NCBI GenBank assembly: GCA_021822115.1
Contig: JAJZSA010000090.1
Location: forward strand, 1-8,173
From: Pseudomonadota bacterium
GTDB lineage: Bacteria; Pseudomonadota; Gammaproteobacteria; Burkholderiales; Gallionellaceae
Length of the DNA stretch: 8,173 bases
Reading direction: 5' to 3'
Shown here piece after piece: positions 2,642 to 7,367 of the stretch. The notes under the pieces were generated by a model, which worked only from the letters and a program-made list of their open reading frames with translations, was not told the origin of the DNA and made no database searches. The position numbers were made by a program, and so were the translations under genes. The first letter of the stretch is position 1. Each line of letters starts with the position of its first letter.

Positions 2642-4720
2642 TCAGCGGTGCGGGTGGAAGGTGATGGGCACCACGGAAGGCGGCGGCGACTGCAGGATGT
2701 GCTTCTTCGCCTTGCCCATCACGTGCATCTCGCACTTGCGGCAATCGAATTCCAGACGCAGCTTCTCGCTGCCGTTGACCAGCGTCATCGGCTCGGCGCG
2801 CACCTGGCCTTGCACACCGATCACGCCCCTGGCCTGTTTCGGGCACAGGCTCAACGAATAGCGGATGCAGTGGCGCGTGATCATCAGCGGCACTTCGCCC
2901 GCTTCCTCGTGCGCCTCGTAGGCGGCGGCGATCAGCTTCACGCCGTGCTGTGCGTAGAAGTCGCGCGCGGCGCTGTTGTAAACGTTGGCGAGGAAGGACA
3001 GCGTCTCTTCCGGATATTGCGCGGGCGGCTGCACCGCCGCCTTGCGCGGCAGCGGCACATAGGCGGCGAGGCGCGCGGCTTCCAGTCTCTCTACTGCCTC
3101 GCGGCGCAGGGTGTTGAGCAGCGAAGTGGGGATGAACTGCGGCTGTGACCAAAGCACGTCCGCCGCTTCCAGCTCGAAGTCGGTGTTGCCCAGTCGGGCG
3201 AGTTGCGCGCGCACAGCGTCTTCCGCGCCTTCGGGTTGCTTGGCGGGCTGCTTGTCGAAGTCGGCGCTCGCGCTGACTTCGATGTCGTCCTCGTCGCGCA
3301 AGGTCAGCGTGTAACCCGTCGCCGTTTCTGCCAGCGTGGCGTGCACGCCGATCTTGCGCTCTGCCGATTTCTTGCTGAGCGCCAGCTCCCACGCATGGTC
3401 GCTGTTGCGGTTGATGGTGAGGCCGACGCGCAGGCCGATGAGTTCGGCGATCTTCTCGTTCGGCCACACACGCCAAACGCTTTGACTAGCCTGCTGCGCA
3501 GCCAGATCGCCGCGTTGCGCGGTGCTCGCTTCCTCGCCTACCCCGCTTGGTATGTCTCGTCGCTCCGCTCCGTGCGCCTTGCGCTCTGGCTGCTCGCGAC
3601 GGCTATTCAAAGCGTTACTCATATTTTTTACCGTGTTGGCGCGCAGGCCGCGCGTCTCGCGTTTGTGCAGGTAGTTGAGGCCGTCGCCGTTGGCGAGCGT
3701 CTCGCTGGTCTCGATCTCGAACCAGTCCGGCCCGAGCTTGCTGATGCTGCCCAGCGGCAGGCCGACGAAGCTGGGCGCGTCGAACGCGCCGATGTCGATC
3801 TGGCGGCCGTTGGCGAAATAGTCGGTCGCGCCGCGGTGGAAGGTCTTGTCCGGGTCGGGCGTGAAGAACAGTTTGGTGCTGCCGCTGGAAGCCGCGTGCA
3901 GGTCGTGGCGGTTCTCCAGGATCTCGTCCAGTAGGCGGCGGTAATGGCCGGTGATGTTCTTCACATAGGGCGCATCCTTGTAGCGCCCCTCGATCTTGAA
4001 GCTGCGCACGCCGGCCTTGACCAGCGCGCGCAGGTTCGCGCTCTGGTTGTTGTCCTTCACCGACAGCAGATGTTTCTCGAAAGCGACCACGCGCCCCTGT
4101 TCATCTTCCAGCGTGTAAGGCAGGCGGCAGGCCTGCGAACAATCGCCGCGGTTGGCCGAACGGCCGGTGTGCGCATGGCTGATGTTGCACTGGCCGGAAT
4201 AGGCCACGCACAGCGCGCCGTGGATGAAATGTTCGATCACCGTGTCGCTGGGCACCGCCGCGCGCACGGCGGCGATCTCTTCCATGGTCAGCTCGCGCGC
4301 CAGCACCAGTTGCGAGAAACCCACCTCGGCCAGGAACTTCGCCTTCTCCGGCGTGCGGATGTCGCACTGCGTGGAAGCGTGCAGGTCGATGGGCGGCAGG
4401 TCGAGTTGCAGCAAGCCCATGTCCTGCACGATCAGCGCATCCACCCCGATGTCGTAACAATCCTGCGCCAGCTTGCGCGCAGGCGCCAGCTCCGCATCGT
4501 GCAGGATGGTGTTCAGCGTGACATAGACCTTGGCGTGGAAGCGATGCGCATAACGCACCAGCTCTGCGATGTCGGCGATGGCATTGCCTGCCTTGTCGCG
4601 CGCGCCGAAAGAAGGCCCGCCGATATACACCGCATCCGCCCCATGCGAGATCGCCTCGCGTGCGATGGCGACGGTCTTGGCGGGGGCGAGCAGTTCGAGG
4701 GATGAAAGGGGGGTAGGCAT
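2642..4720 (-). CDS. rlhA: U32 family protein, RlhA-type 23S rRNA 5-hydroxycytidine synthase, with an in-frame 47-residue insert
   Basis: RlhA (formerly YdcP) in E. coli makes 5-hydroxycytidine at 23S rRNA C2501, probably using prephenate-derived metabolism and an Fe-S cluster. The 692-residue product starts LELLAPAKTVAIAREAI, the typical U32 N-terminus. It carries the U32 signature EHFIHGALCVAYSGQC (163-178), followed by SANRGDCSQACRLPY with Cys194 and Cys198; these cysteines, with 171 and 178, are candidate cluster ligands. A second cysteine set near the C-terminus (618, 626, 660, 663; RHCIRYSLSLCPK and DCRKCEMHV) is also RlhA-like, unlike the shorter TrhP/YegQ. Normal family length is about 650, so the excess is explained by residues 369-415, encoded by the repeat element at 3476-3616. 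The frame stays open and the sequence resumes with WRVWPNE. The protein may still work because the insert falls between domains. Confidence 0.9.
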   Translation of the reverse strand: MPTPLSSLELLAPAKTVAIAREAISHGADAVYIGGPSFGARDKAGNAIADIAELVRYAHRFHAKVYVTLNTILHDAELAPARKLAQDCYDIGVDALIVQDMGLLQLDLPPIDLHASTQCDIRTPEKAKFLAEVGFSQLVLARELTMEEIAAVRAAVPSDTVIEHFIHGALCVAYSGQCNISHAHTGRSANRGDCSQACRLPYTLEDEQGRVVAFEKHLLSVKDNNQSANLRALVKAGVRSFKIEGRYKDAPYVKNITGHYRRLLDEILENRHDLHAASSGSTKLFFTPDPDKTFHRGATDYFANGRQIDIGAFDAPSFVGLPLGSISKLGPDWFEIETSETLANGDGLNYLHKRETRGLRANTVKNMSNALNSRREQPERKAHGAERRDIPSGVGEEASTAQRGDLAAQQASQSVWRVWPNEKIAELIGLRVGLTINRNSDHAWELALSKKSAERKIGVHATLAETATGYTLTLRDEDDIEVSASADFDKQPAKQPEGAEDAVRAQLARLGNTDFELEAADVLWSQPQFIPTSLLNTLRREAVERLEAARLAAYVPLPRKAAVQPPAQYPEETLSFLANVYNSAARDFYAQHGVKLIAAAYEAHEEAGEVPLMITRHCIRYSLSLCPKQARGVIGVQGQVRAEPMTLVNGSEKLRLEFDCRKCEMHVMGKAKKHILQSPPPSVVPITFHPHR
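3476..3616 (-). mobile_element. 141-bp MITE/REP-like element inserted in frame inside rlhA
   Basis: The segment is bounded by 16-bp inverted repeats, AACGCTTTGACTAGCC at 3476-3491 and GGCTATTCAAAGCGTT at 3601-3616, which pair at 15 of 16 positions. A second 9-bp complementary block lies further in (3498-3506 with 3585-3593), so most of the element could fold into one long imperfect hairpin. Its length is 47 codons exactly, and read on the rlhA strand it has no stop. It adds a hydrophilic, Arg/Glu/Ala/Gln-rich peptide (NALNSRREQPERKAHG...) between ANTVKNMS and WRVWPNE. No target-site duplication is obvious at the borders. No transposase lies inside, so it would be non-autonomous. No second copy was seen in this window. 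The family name is not known to me. Confidence 0.7.
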
Positions 4721-4860: not shown

Positions 4861-4889
4861 TTGCGGATATGTCAGTTCGGACATACACT
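4861..4889 (+). promoter_or_regulatory. Promoter of the first toxin-antitoxin operon
   Basis: TTGCGG (4861-4866) is followed after exactly 17 bases by TACACT (4884-4889). The toxin ATG is 7 bases past the -10, and no Shine-Dalgarno lies between, so transcription probably begins at or next to the start codon (leaderless). The spacer contains the inverted repeat at 4868-4885. Confidence 0.5.
4868..4885. promoter_or_regulatory. Operator-like inverted repeat in the first toxin-antitoxin promoter
   Basis: TATGTC (4868-4873) and GACATA (4880-4885) are perfect inverted arms with a 6-base centre that has one further G/C pair. The site fills the -35/-10 spacer and overlaps the first bases of the -10, the usual position for autorepression by an XRE antitoxin of the HigA type. 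The binding protein is inferred to be the product of 5245-5559. Confidence 0.5.
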
Positions 4890-4896
4890 GCTCGCC

Positions 4897-5229
4897 ATGA
4901 GCAAACAGCATAAACCGCTGGTATGGCTGCATGGCGAAGTCAAAACACCGCCATTCTCTGCTGCCGCGAGGATCGAAGCCGGTGTGTATCTGCGACAGCT
5001 ACAGGCCGGGGTCAACATAGCGCTGCCGCACTCAAGGCCAATGCCTAGCATCGGTCGTGGATGCAACGAATTAAGGATTCCTGACGAGAATCGAACATGG
5101 CGTATCGTGTACTACGTCGATGTGGTCGCCATCGTGATCCTTGAAGTGTTCGCCAAGACGACCAGACAAACGCCGCAACCGGTGATCGATGTTTGCAAGG
5201 CGAGATTGAAGCAGTACAAAGCGATTTAA
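4897..5229 (+). CDS. Type II toxin, HigB-like RelE superfamily (phage Gp49-like)
   Basis: The 110-residue protein resembles the Gp49/HigB branch of RelE-fold mRNA-interferase toxins. Matching features are KPLVWLHGEVKTPPFSAAAR near the N-terminus, LRQLQAGVNIALPHSRPMPSI in the middle, then CNELRIPDENRTWRIVYYVD and ILEVFAKTTRQTP, the typical RelE-like strand with basic residues. In this family cleavage of translated mRNA is the known activity; here it is inferred. An upstream in-frame TTG at 4861 would place the start inside the promoter; the ATG at 4897 is preferred because family similarity begins there. There is no ribosome binding site, consistent with a leaderless message. The next gene, 15 bases downstream, is its XRE antitoxin, giving the toxin-first order characteristic of higBA. 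Confidence 0.85.
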   Translation: MSKQHKPLVWLHGEVKTPPFSAAARIEAGVYLRQLQAGVNIALPHSRPMPSIGRGCNELRIPDENRTWRIVYYVDVVAIVILEVFAKTTRQTPQPVIDVCKARLKQYKAI

Positions 5230-5244
5230 CAGGAGGGTGATGTG

Positions 5245-5559
5245 ATGAAGACCAATAAATTGGAACGCCTGAAGGCCGCGGGGTGGGAAGCAGGAAACGC
5301 CGAGGATTTTCTGCAATTGAGCGATGAAGAAGCAAAGCTCGTCGCGCTGAAACTCGCGCTGATCAGCGCGGTGAAAAAATCGCGTATCAAACACAAACTC
5401 TCGCAAACCGATCTCGCGCAGCGCATGAAATCCAGTCAATCGCGCATCGCAAAGATCGAAGCGGGCGACGCTTCCGTTTCGCTGGACTTGGTCGTGCGCG
5501 CACTCATCGCCAGCGGCGCAACGACGCGCGATATTCAGGCGGCGTTCACGGCACAGTAG
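5245..5559 (+). CDS. XRE-family HigA-like antitoxin
   Basis: A 104-residue DNA-binding protein that should neutralise the upstream HigB-like toxin and repress the operon. The N-terminal 40 residues (KLERLKAAGWEAGNAEDFLQ) are typical of small antitoxins paired with Gp49-type toxins. A Cro/C1-type helix-turn-helix covers about 42-90, with KLSQTDLAQRMKSSQSRIAK as the recognition helices and IEAGDASVSLDLVVRAL after it. A strong Shine-Dalgarno, AGGAGG at 5231-5236, lies 8 bases before the ATG at 5245. A GTG at 5242 is in frame but too close to be favoured. The good ribosome site here, against none for the toxin, would keep antitoxin in excess. The likely operator is the inverted repeat at 4868-4885. 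Confidence 0.85.
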   Translation: MKTNKLERLKAAGWEAGNAEDFLQLSDEEAKLVALKLALISAVKKSRIKHKLSQTDLAQRMKSSQSRIAKIEAGDASVSLDLVVRALIASGATTRDIQAAFTAQ

Positions 5560-5660: not shown

Positions 5661-6389
5661 ATGGATGCATCTACAATTGTATTTATCCATGAACATTTGA
5701 CTGAGTATTTTGCCGATAAGGATGACCCCATAAGTCCACCTGGAGTAAAAAACATGGAGACGGTCGAATCGGCCGCCGCAAGGCCAATTGCTACTGTTGG
5801 TGGTCGCGATGCATATCCTACGGTCTTCTTAAAGGCAGCATCACTCTTTCATAGCATTGCCTGCAATCATTCTTTTCACAATGGAAACAAGCGCACTGCC
5901 CTTTTATCGACCCTTTATTACTTGGGTGAACACGGCTATTGGCTTGATCGATGCGATGATGATGAGATGTATGAGTTCACTCGAAAAATGGCGGCGCATG
6001 AAATCACTGAAGATCGCCGGGATGAAGTGAAGGTAATCGCCGACTGGCTTGAGCATAACGCAAGAAAACAACAAAAAGGCGAGAGGCAATTAAAACTTGT
6101 AGATCTTCGGGAAGCACTTGGCCGGTTTGGATTTGAACTTCGTGAAAATGGCCAAACTTTACAGATTATTAAGGATGATTCCGTTGTTGAAACGATTCGA
6201 AAGAAAGGCACACAGGGCTTCGAGGATTACGACCACCAATATATTGCTGAGCTTCGTAAACGATTGCATCTTACAGTTGAGGATAATGTTGATAGTGCGC
6301 GGTTCTACGGTCAAAAAGGGATATCAGAAGACTTAAATCAGTTTATGCAGCTTCGACTGGAAGTCATGAAACGGTTGGCAAAAATTTGA
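5661..6389 (+). CDS. Doc/Fic-family toxin-like protein with a C-terminal extension of about 100 residues
   Basis: The N-terminal 135 residues match the death-on-curing (Doc) branch of the Fic fold. The Fic loop is HSFHNGNKR (70-78), with the lysine-containing NKR ending of Doc rather than the GNGR of AMP-transferring Fic proteins. Upstream, METVESAAARP (32-42) corresponds to the segment that precedes the active site in Doc. Phage P1 Doc phosphorylates EF-Tu; the same activity is plausible here but not shown. Doc is about 126 residues; this protein is 242, and residues about 143-242 (VDLREALGRFGFELREN..., ending LRLEVMKRLAKI) form an extra domain I do not recognise. AAAGGA lies 8 bases before the ATG. 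No Phd-type antitoxin lies on either side. The gene is visibly AT-richer than its neighbours, suggesting transfer. Confidence 0.82.
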   Translation: MDASTIVFIHEHLTEYFADKDDPISPPGVKNMETVESAAARPIATVGGRDAYPTVFLKAASLFHSIACNHSFHNGNKRTALLSTLYYLGEHGYWLDRCDDDEMYEFTRKMAAHEITEDRRDEVKVIADWLEHNARKQQKGERQLKLVDLREALGRFGFELRENGQTLQIIKDDSVVETIRKKGTQGFEDYDHQYIAELRKRLHLTVEDNVDSARFYGQKGISEDLNQFMQLRLEVMKRLAKI

Positions 6390-6633: not shown

Positions 6634-6966
6634 TCAAACGAGCACTTCCAGCCCATGCTTCTCCACCACGCTCAACAGTCGCAAGGCCATCCCGCTCGGG
6701 CGCTTCTGGCCGGTTTCCCATTTCTGGACGGTGGATTCGCTGGTGTTCAGGTAACGCGCGAAAACGGGTTGGCTGACGTGGGCGTGTTCGCGGATGCGTT
6801 TGATGTCTTCGGCCTTGAACTCGGGTACGGCATCCAGGCAGAGGGCATCGTATTCGCGCAGCGTGGTTTTGGTGATGGCGCCTGCGCGGTGTAATCCGCT
6901 GGCGGCACTATGGATGGCAGCGAAGGCGTCGCTCTTGGGTTGGGTTTTTGCGGTTTTAGTCGTCAT
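6634..6966 (-). CDS. XRE-family antitoxin (HigA/NadS-like), second toxin-antitoxin operon
   Basis: The 110-residue product has a long N-terminal arm (1-50) and a C-terminal helix-turn-helix (about 52-102). The core is IKRIREHAHVSQPVFARYLN, then TSESTVQKWETGQKRPSGMA, typical of the NadS/HigA-like antitoxins found after RelE-type toxins. It should bind the toxin and repress the shared promoter through the inverted repeat at 7341-7359. The ATG at 6966 overlaps the toxin stop by 11 bases; GGAG lies 8 bases upstream within the toxin gene, so translation is coupled but independently primed. It shows little similarity by eye to the first antitoxin (5245-5559) outside the helix-turn-helix, so cross-neutralisation is unlikely. 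Confidence 0.87.
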   Translation of the reverse strand: MTTKTAKTQPKSDAFAAIHSAASGLHRAGAITKTTLREYDALCLDAVPEFKAEDIKRIREHAHVSQPVFARYLNTSESTVQKWETGQKRPSGMALRLLSVVEKHGLEVLV

Positions 6967-7333
6967 GGCATATCTCCAGTAATTCCTTGTCTTTCAACAG
7001 TGCGGCGATCTTGGCTTCGCCTACGCTCGCATAGTCTTTTGCCAGTTTCTTGAAGGCGGTCAATTCATTCGGCGTGATGTTCGCCCTGTCTTTCTTCGCG
7101 TAAAGGTAGGCATATATCCAGTGCTTGCCTGCCTTGGCCAGAATGATCGCGCGGTGCAGGTTGTCGTTCAGGCGTTTCTTGAACACCCCGCCGCCCAGAT
7201 CATCGGCCTGTCCTTGCATGACTTGCCGGATGGCCCGGCATAAATCGCTGTCGGCGATCTTCGTTTTGCGGGCTTCCTTGGCAAACCACGCCGTTTTGAA
7301 TGCGCGAACTGTGATTTGTGGCTTGTTGGTCAT
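6956..7333 (-). CDS. RelE/HigB-type toxin of the second toxin-antitoxin operon
   Basis: The 125-residue protein belongs to the RelE-like family often paired with NadS-type antitoxins. Recognisable segments are VRAFKTAWFAKEARKTKI (9-26), SDLCRAIRQVMQGQADDLGG (29-48), VFKKRLND (50-57), then RAIILAKAGKHWIYAYLYAK (61-80) and a basic, Leu-rich C-terminus. The K/R-rich middle with Tyr residues fits a ribonuclease-type toxin; activity is inferred. The ATG at 7333 is preferred over an in-frame GTG at 7348, because the GTG falls inside the operator. No Shine-Dalgarno lies before the ATG. The antitoxin gene overlaps its 3' end. Confidence 0.85.
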   Translation of the reverse strand: MTNKPQITVRAFKTAWFAKEARKTKIADSDLCRAIRQVMQGQADDLGGGVFKKRLNDNLHRAIILAKAGKHWIYAYLYAKKDRANITPNELTAFKKLAKDYASVGEAKIAALLKDKELLEICHDD

Positions 7334-7338
7334 GGCGC

Positions 7339-7367
7339 ATGGTAGCACTTGGTGCTACCGCGCTCAA
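7339..7367 (-). promoter_or_regulatory. Promoter of the second toxin-antitoxin operon
   Basis: On the minus strand, TTGAGC (7367-7362) is followed after 17 bases by TACCAT (7344-7339), which ends 5 bases before the toxin ATG. Transcription would begin at about the A of the ATG, giving a leaderless toxin message. The same TTGAGC hexamer occurs in the predicted HD-GYP promoter. Confidence 0.5.
7341..7359. promoter_or_regulatory. Operator-like inverted repeat of the second toxin-antitoxin operon
   Basis: GGTAGCAC (7341-7348) and GTGCTACC (7352-7359) are perfect 8-bp arms around TTG. The site overlaps the -10 and most of the spacer of the predicted promoter, so binding of the XRE antitoxin would block RNA polymerase. 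This is the strongest palindrome in the window. Confidence 0.6.

Follow-up and report, generated by a model that had tools for sequence, protein, structure and literature searches.

A dispersed palindromic repeat of Gallionellaceae, open in frame in rlhA and five further conserved gene families

The window analysed here, a stretch of 8,173 nucleotides from a member of the Gallionellaceae, an iron-oxidising family (contig JAJZSA010000090.1), holds an RlhA-type gene within which a 141-bp segment bounded by inverted repeats is read in frame. Whether this segment is a native loop of the protein, a mobile element, or a nucleic acid with a function of its own is the question raised by the locus. The initial annotation, made from the sequence of the window, took it for a mobile palindromic element of exactly 47 codons, domesticated as peptide. 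We assign a probability of roughly 0.85 to the reading that it is a copy of a mobile, hairpin-forming Gallionellaceae repeat, usually intergenic, which would be translated as a spacer where frame and protein loop permit. The features of the window on which the argument draws are as follows.

2642..4720, minus strand: RlhA-type gene, 692 aa, Peptidase_U32 and DUF3656 domains, frame open across the insert
3476..3616, minus strand: copy of the dispersed palindromic repeat, codons 369-415 of the 692-aa open reading frame
3601..3616, minus strand: 5' terminal inverted-repeat arm (gene orientation), 16 nt
3476..3491, minus strand: 3' terminal inverted-repeat arm (gene orientation), 16 nt
3498..3510, no strand assigned: one side of the inner stem, pairing with 3581-3593 at 12/13 positions
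3581..3593, no strand assigned: other side of the inner stem, pairing with 3498-3510 at 12/13 positions
3491..3601, minus strand: conserved core of 111 nt, among the 26 copies behind search model R1
3482..3616, minus strand: DNA missing in empty orthologues by locus comparison, 135 bp (45 codons)
3617..3705, minus strand: left part of a probable recombination tract, where the window matches locus L002 and not its nearest DNA relative, L001

The repeat in rlhA and its empty sites

The inverted-repeat segment is real as annotated: its 16-bp arms (3476-3491 and 3601-3616) are complementary at 15 of 16 positions, and the whole is in frame and stop-free. One inverted repeat of this quality (16 nt, at least 15/16, within 220 nt) occurs in the gene, and such a repeat turns up in 24 of 1000 dinucleotide shuffles of it; the arms alone are therefore no more than moderately unlikely, and it is the comparative evidence that carries the case. 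Folded as RNA, as had been proposed, the segment reaches -66.7 kcal/mol (z -4.5), and folding is strong as RNA on both strands and as DNA on the coding strand. Two of the 120 RlhA homologues listed carry the source name '23S rRNA 5-hydroxycytidine C2501 synthase'. No solved structure with a sequence match to the window's protein was found, and in an AlphaFold2 model that is poor as a whole (mean pLDDT 61.5), insert residues 371-411 have pLDDT below 50. Toxin-antitoxin-like genes follow rlhA in the window, at 4861-5559 (Gp49/HTH pair), 5661-6389 (Fic/DOC) and 6634-7348 (RelE/HTH).

Thirty-four related rlhA loci were compared with the window, 20 of them readable at the insert point and 14 missed by the motif. 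In 15 of the 20, two conserved blocks are separated by 99 nt, versus 234 in the window, an excess of exactly 135 nt (45 codons); L002 is filled (234 nt), while L023 and L024 have 114 nt and L033 has 111 nt at this point. In L019, whose betaproteobacterial rlhA is more distant, 207 nt separate the blocks and a further repeat-like insert occupies this site. The two codons that empty genes do have here are matched by the right-hand AGCGTT (SV before WRVW; window 3476-3481), and these six nucleotides are probably part of the original gene. The figure of 47 codons thus holds for the inverted-repeat segment, whereas the extra DNA amounts to 135 bp. Similarly, the expectation that close relatives would lack the insert residues is borne out for most of them, with a deficit of 45 rather than 47 codons.

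At the protein level, the insert residues are absent from most of 120 RlhA homologues; P0014 and P0021 have a related insert of 49 codons (147 nt) at the same place, and P0070 and P0111 a different sequence at the insert point. That the segment is a native, lineage-specific loop of RlhA, and no mobile element, might be argued from its presence in L002/P0006 with 95% DNA identity and identical boundaries. However, the window's nearest RlhA relatives, P0002-P0005, lack the insert, and the same core recurs between genes at many unlinked positions and within five other gene families, which makes a native loop very improbable indeed. Conservation of the 47 residues across orthologues and absence of any other DNA copy, either of which the initial annotation had named as pointing to such a loop, were both looked for, and neither holds.

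Over most of its length the window's rlhA resembles the insert-free L001 more closely than it does L002; the neighbourhood of the insert is the exception. The best run of sites common to the window and L002 spans gene nt 1016-1272 and is reached in 0 of 20,000 permutations, a few of its sites lying in gap-adjacent columns. Of the alleles departing from the majority of nine outgroup loci, L002 shares ten with the window in the left flank and L001 one, and the respective counts elsewhere in the gene are 29 and 134 (Fisher p 1.1e-6, the region having been chosen after inspection). In the RlhA protein tree, drawn without P0001 (99% identical to the window), the window is placed among empty relatives. 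As these shared sites suggest, the copy in the window probably came into rlhA through recombination with another lineage and not by transposing itself. Since P0005, which is empty, has some of the same left-flank residues as the window, some of this signal may stem from change in L001. Repeated precise loss of the insert is the alternative history, recombination transfer being the simplest reading.

Dispersal, insertion unit and mobility

With the 141-bp segment as query, copies are detected in 13 of 16 relatives (E 1e-5). A sequence-only model of the 111-nt core, R1, built from 26 copies with their flanks left out, matches in 73 of 100 genomes of the family, with up to 30 copies each (E 1e-6), and in 45 of 200 genomes of the order; the family of the 100 genomes was called Gallionellaceae after the rlhA loci. 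By record title, carrier loci belong to Gallionellaceae, Sideroxydans, Gallionella and Nitrosomonadales, and not to Rickettsiales. No match to the repeat was found among phages, and plasmids gave one weak Nitrosomonas match. The dispersed copies that the initial annotation proposed to look for are therefore plentiful and, together with empty sites in rlhA and at intergenic loci, they support its proposal of a mobile palindromic element.

The repeat comprises a conserved core of ~111 nt and terminal inverted repeats of ~16 bp, which differ in sequence between copies. Flanks were studied for 138 copies, drawn from the loci returned and from 80 regions at the top of the list. The left and right arms of the same copy match with a score of at least 10 in 72 of the 138, versus 2.25% of 4000 mismatched pairs; among these 72, the matching stops 15-18 nt away from the core in 51 copies. 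The remaining 66 score below 10, many of them with a terminal match of just ~5 nt. Each copy's flanks thus match each other and often not those of other copies, so an inverted target duplication, in which the repeat would copy its target in inverted form, was first considered. It was dropped when empty sites placed both arms within the inserted DNA. A better account of the arm matching is that the two terminal repeats of a copy change in concert, through either compensatory selection or template-switch correction.

Empty orthologues were sought for five intergenic loci, three of which gave clean comparisons (L116 and L200 did not). At these three, exactly 147 bp, arms and core together, are inserted in 8 of 12 pairwise realignments; three relatives of L189 give 148-150 bp, and one relative of L184 (L231, with other sequence there) gives 120 bp. 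TTTA flanks the L184 insertion on both sides, and 4-bp direct repeats stand beside 10 of 59 copies versus 6.0% of mismatched pairs, a modest enrichment by which a target-site duplication would be weakly supported. Two frequent terminal sequences, searched for in ten genomes, occur singly or paired less than 250 bp apart, and no gene-sized pair and no transposase were found there. As far as its sequence tells, the repeat is in outline a MITE of ~143 bp. At orthologous places in L087 versus L156 and L188, and in L152 versus L172, the repeat is flipped relative to its flanks, through either inversion in place or separate insertion events.

Most of the copies sampled lie between genes. In a sample drawn blind to genes, recognisable genes account for 3 of 137 copies (two loci), namely rlhA (the window and L081) and a Methyltransf_32 gene in L086; these are the three counted among 28 long frames over copies in that sample, the others being judged spurious by eye. 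Among 129 copies, and as counts that have no random control, the start codon lies 16-20 nt outward of the core edge in 49 of the 103 arms followed by an open one and at 10 nt in 14 more, and stop codons are concentrated 15-17 nt from the core edge (34 of 147). GAGGT is frequent in the terminal repeats, as if the end of the element were a ribosome-binding site.

Copies in frame in other genes

Translated searches covered 158 genomes and 40 regions; they favour long open frames, such that frame-breaking insertions fall outside their scope. Eleven of 29 long frames from the 40 regions were counted (MoeA six, Lnt three, Mfd and FolC one each), and in-frame copies occur in moeA, mfd, folC, lnt and the Methyltransf_32 gene besides rlhA, six gene families in all. 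MoeA, Lnt, Mfd and FolC were named by NCBIfam, except that MoeA L308 and L310 were assigned by similarity to L309 (90% and 66%). A further candidate host, lipA (L316), was dropped, as the repeat falls outside the matched part.

L308-L311, L313, L323: MoeA hosts, six loci
L328, L333, L334: Lnt hosts, repeat read antisense
L317: Mfd host, insert of 49 codons (147 nt)
L315: FolC host, insert of 49 codons (147 nt)
L086: Methyltransf_32 host, domain match split into two stretches

The insert is found in 20 of 120 MoeA homologues, with an 18-residue short form in 99 and an intermediate of 26 residues in one, and a 41-residue insert is found in 4 of 120 homologues of the methyltransferase. Among best-matching loci, Mfd has 49 residues more than 29 of 29 relatives; FolC has 49 more than the 24-residue form, which 10 of 29 loci have, 19 having longer forms; and Lnt has 36 more than its commonest form (10 of 28 readable loci, of which two have the same insert; L374 was unreadable). 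Insert sizes in Mfd, FolC and the methyltransferase were taken from protein comparisons. All in-gene cases studied are stop-free and differ from short forms by a multiple of three, and the reading phases differ: RlhA uses one, MoeA and the methyltransferase share another, and the first half of the Mfd insert and the antisense Lnt copies differ again. In-frame copies in five further conserved families uphold the likeness in principle to the Rickettsia palindromic elements that the initial annotation had drawn. In contrast, its phrase 'domesticated as peptide' finds no support, since the frame in which the repeat is read varies from host to host and can be antisense, and synonymous sites in the repeat are conserved beyond those of the host genes, as set out below.

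The strong hairpin, and the conservation of nucleotides rather than peptide, would also suit removal of the insert before or during protein synthesis, as by an intron, intein or translational bypass element, with no peptide made. Yet the in-gene cases are stop-free and step in multiples of three (as found by searches that favour open frames), the repeat matches no intein model, and Rfam gives no match in the window at its gathering threshold; we consider removal improbable.

Several host loops also accept other sequences. RlhA has a second insertion point at residue 517 (consensus residue 472; window ~3170-3172), where the window has no insert and 28 of 120 homologues carry varied inserts of at least 13 residues, requiring 20 changes on the tree as against four at the first point. 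Several of these second-point inserts look like translated repeats (PFDKLRANG-type, SPARGRG-type). Methyltransferases P0154, P0175 and P0197 have an unrelated sequence of 29-31 residues at the repeat's point, and FolC (L379-L407) and Lnt (L350-L377) have varied extra sequences in the loop where the repeat lies. Such variety at a single point suggests permissive loops rather than a favoured peptide. The Lnt of L376 has a short extra segment that looks, by eye, like what a truncated Lnt insert would leave behind.

Dispersed copies, empty sites, open frames in six gene families and several reading frames are thus on record, and the preferred reading, a mobile repeat tolerated as a spacer, would join them as follows. 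The repeat may move as a MITE aided by an enzyme in trans; where it enters a protein loop tolerant of extra residues, the gene would survive, and an inserted length of 147 nt, sometimes less by a multiple of three, would keep the frame, shorter inserts presumably having been trimmed after insertion. It would then be read as a spacer, hydrophilic and probably disordered in RlhA, and RlhA with the insert would be made and would work. An allele that already carried the repeat would have passed it to the window's rlhA through homologous recombination, the core being held afterwards by selection on DNA or RNA and not on peptide.

What is conserved, and relation to known repeats

In MoeA (six genes, 15 non-independent pairs), fourfold-degenerate sites have a mean identity of 93% in the insert versus 58% elsewhere, and third positions 91% versus 58%. 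Along the gene, third-position identity runs from 0.54 in the 15 codons before the insert through 0.88 and 0.92 inside it and 0.66 straddling its end to 0.57 after it. Variable columns at the three codon positions number 7, 6 and 5 in 31 insert codons versus 107, 71 and 231 in 306 codons outside (Fisher p 0.027). RlhA fourfold sites reach 95% in the insert versus 70% elsewhere, and those of Lnt 93% versus 55% (L333-L328) and 85% versus 56% (L334-L328), whereas the close pair L333-L334 goes the other way (87% versus 93%). The MoeA pattern points to a constraint on the nucleic acid. That the high insert identity in MoeA and Lnt instead reflects recent lateral transfer would accord with the recombination tract at the rlhA insert, but the third-position rise in MoeA is limited to the insert, and recombination would have brought flanks along. 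Moreover, for each MoeA insert the five others are its nearest copies in the sample, so that overwriting from other copies is unlikely; we regard lateral transfer as rather unlikely to account for this identity.

Among all 35 same-orientation orthologous pairs with both flanks matched, a set that replaces 24 hand-picked pairs (21 of 24), core identity exceeds that of the better flank in 29; counted by site, the window's included, it does so in 17 of 19 (Wilcoxon p 0.0008), the other two going the opposite way. Random pairs of copies have a mean core identity of 71%. In the arms of the MoeA inserts, 91.2% of cells are paired versus 37-51% when slid (since one of the six supplied the pairing scheme, the comparison is biased towards the unslid state), with both-sided changes at 4 of 17 pairs, a pattern that fits either structural selection or templated correction of the arms.

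These observations, namely the excess of core over flank, the MoeA third-position conservation confined to the insert, the paired changes in both arms, and the uncontrolled concentration of start codons where the terminal repeat ends, 16-20 nt off the core edge, would be expected of a structured regulatory RNA or protein-binding DNA module that functions at each site and whose presence in genes is incidental. Against such a module, copies lie in both orientations relative to genes and are flipped at two orthologous sites, two of the 19 sites show the opposite trend, and the MoeA inserts come and go, with 8 changes on the tree, at least 3 of them forced by well-supported branches. Nor does the repeat match an Rfam family at the gathering threshold; in ten other repeat-bearing loci, Rfam finds just a tRNA and anti-hemB, both away from the repeat. 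We view function at each site as possible but unlikely. Doubtful too, in our estimation, is the broader proposal that the repeat is a structured nucleic-acid module kept by selection on DNA or RNA wherever it lands, housekeeping genes included, the peptide being a by-product of a conserved hairpin and the repeat not a decaying selfish element.

The Rickettsia palindromic elements (RPEs) were reportedly described by Ogata et al. in 2000 and 2002. According to PMC10969869, they are palindromic, ~150 bp long and in frame in unrelated genes, with one conserved peptide and one reading frame, and copies in open reading frames are described for conorii. The present repeat is likewise a palindrome of about 150 bp found in frame in six unrelated gene families, but it uses several reading frames including antisense, with no single conserved peptide, and 3 of 137 copies in the gene-blind sample lie in recognisable genes. 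Its hosts are Gallionellaceae and not Rickettsiales, and the likeness drawn here is one of description. MITEs, as given in PMC3733652, measure 70-300 bp with terminal inverted repeats of 15-30 bp. Like them, the repeat is dispersed, of this size and without coding capacity of its own, with occupied and empty sites, and about half of the copies have terminal inverted repeats of ~15-30 bp; unlike in MITEs, these are a variable part and the core is conserved. No parental insertion sequence was found (two terminal sequences, ten genomes), and target-site duplication is weakly supported. REPs, according to PMC3733652, measure 20-40 bp, some lie within coding regions, and the families treated are tagged GTAG or CGTC. 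As in REP/BIME systems, the Gallionellaceae repeat is palindromic, mostly extragenic and at times in genes, but it forms one unit of ~143 bp. With in-frame RPEs and REPs in coding regions described in PMC10969869 and PMC3733652, the kind of element is known; in the literature on Gallionella and Gallionellaceae MITEs, palindromic repeats and in-frame MITE hotspots, judged partly from titles and the opening lines of abstracts, we found no report of this family.

The best-known in-frame palindromic elements are those of Rickettsia, and here another bacterial lineage has a family of them, open in frame in at least six conserved gene families, in different frames, and with a natural insertion step of 147 nt (49 codons). 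The loops of RlhA, FolC, Lnt and the methyltransferase, which also accept unrelated sequences, offer a natural map of insertion tolerance in enzymes. With conservation at synonymous sites, it becomes possible to test whether repeats of this kind are remnants of selfish elements or nucleic acids with a function.
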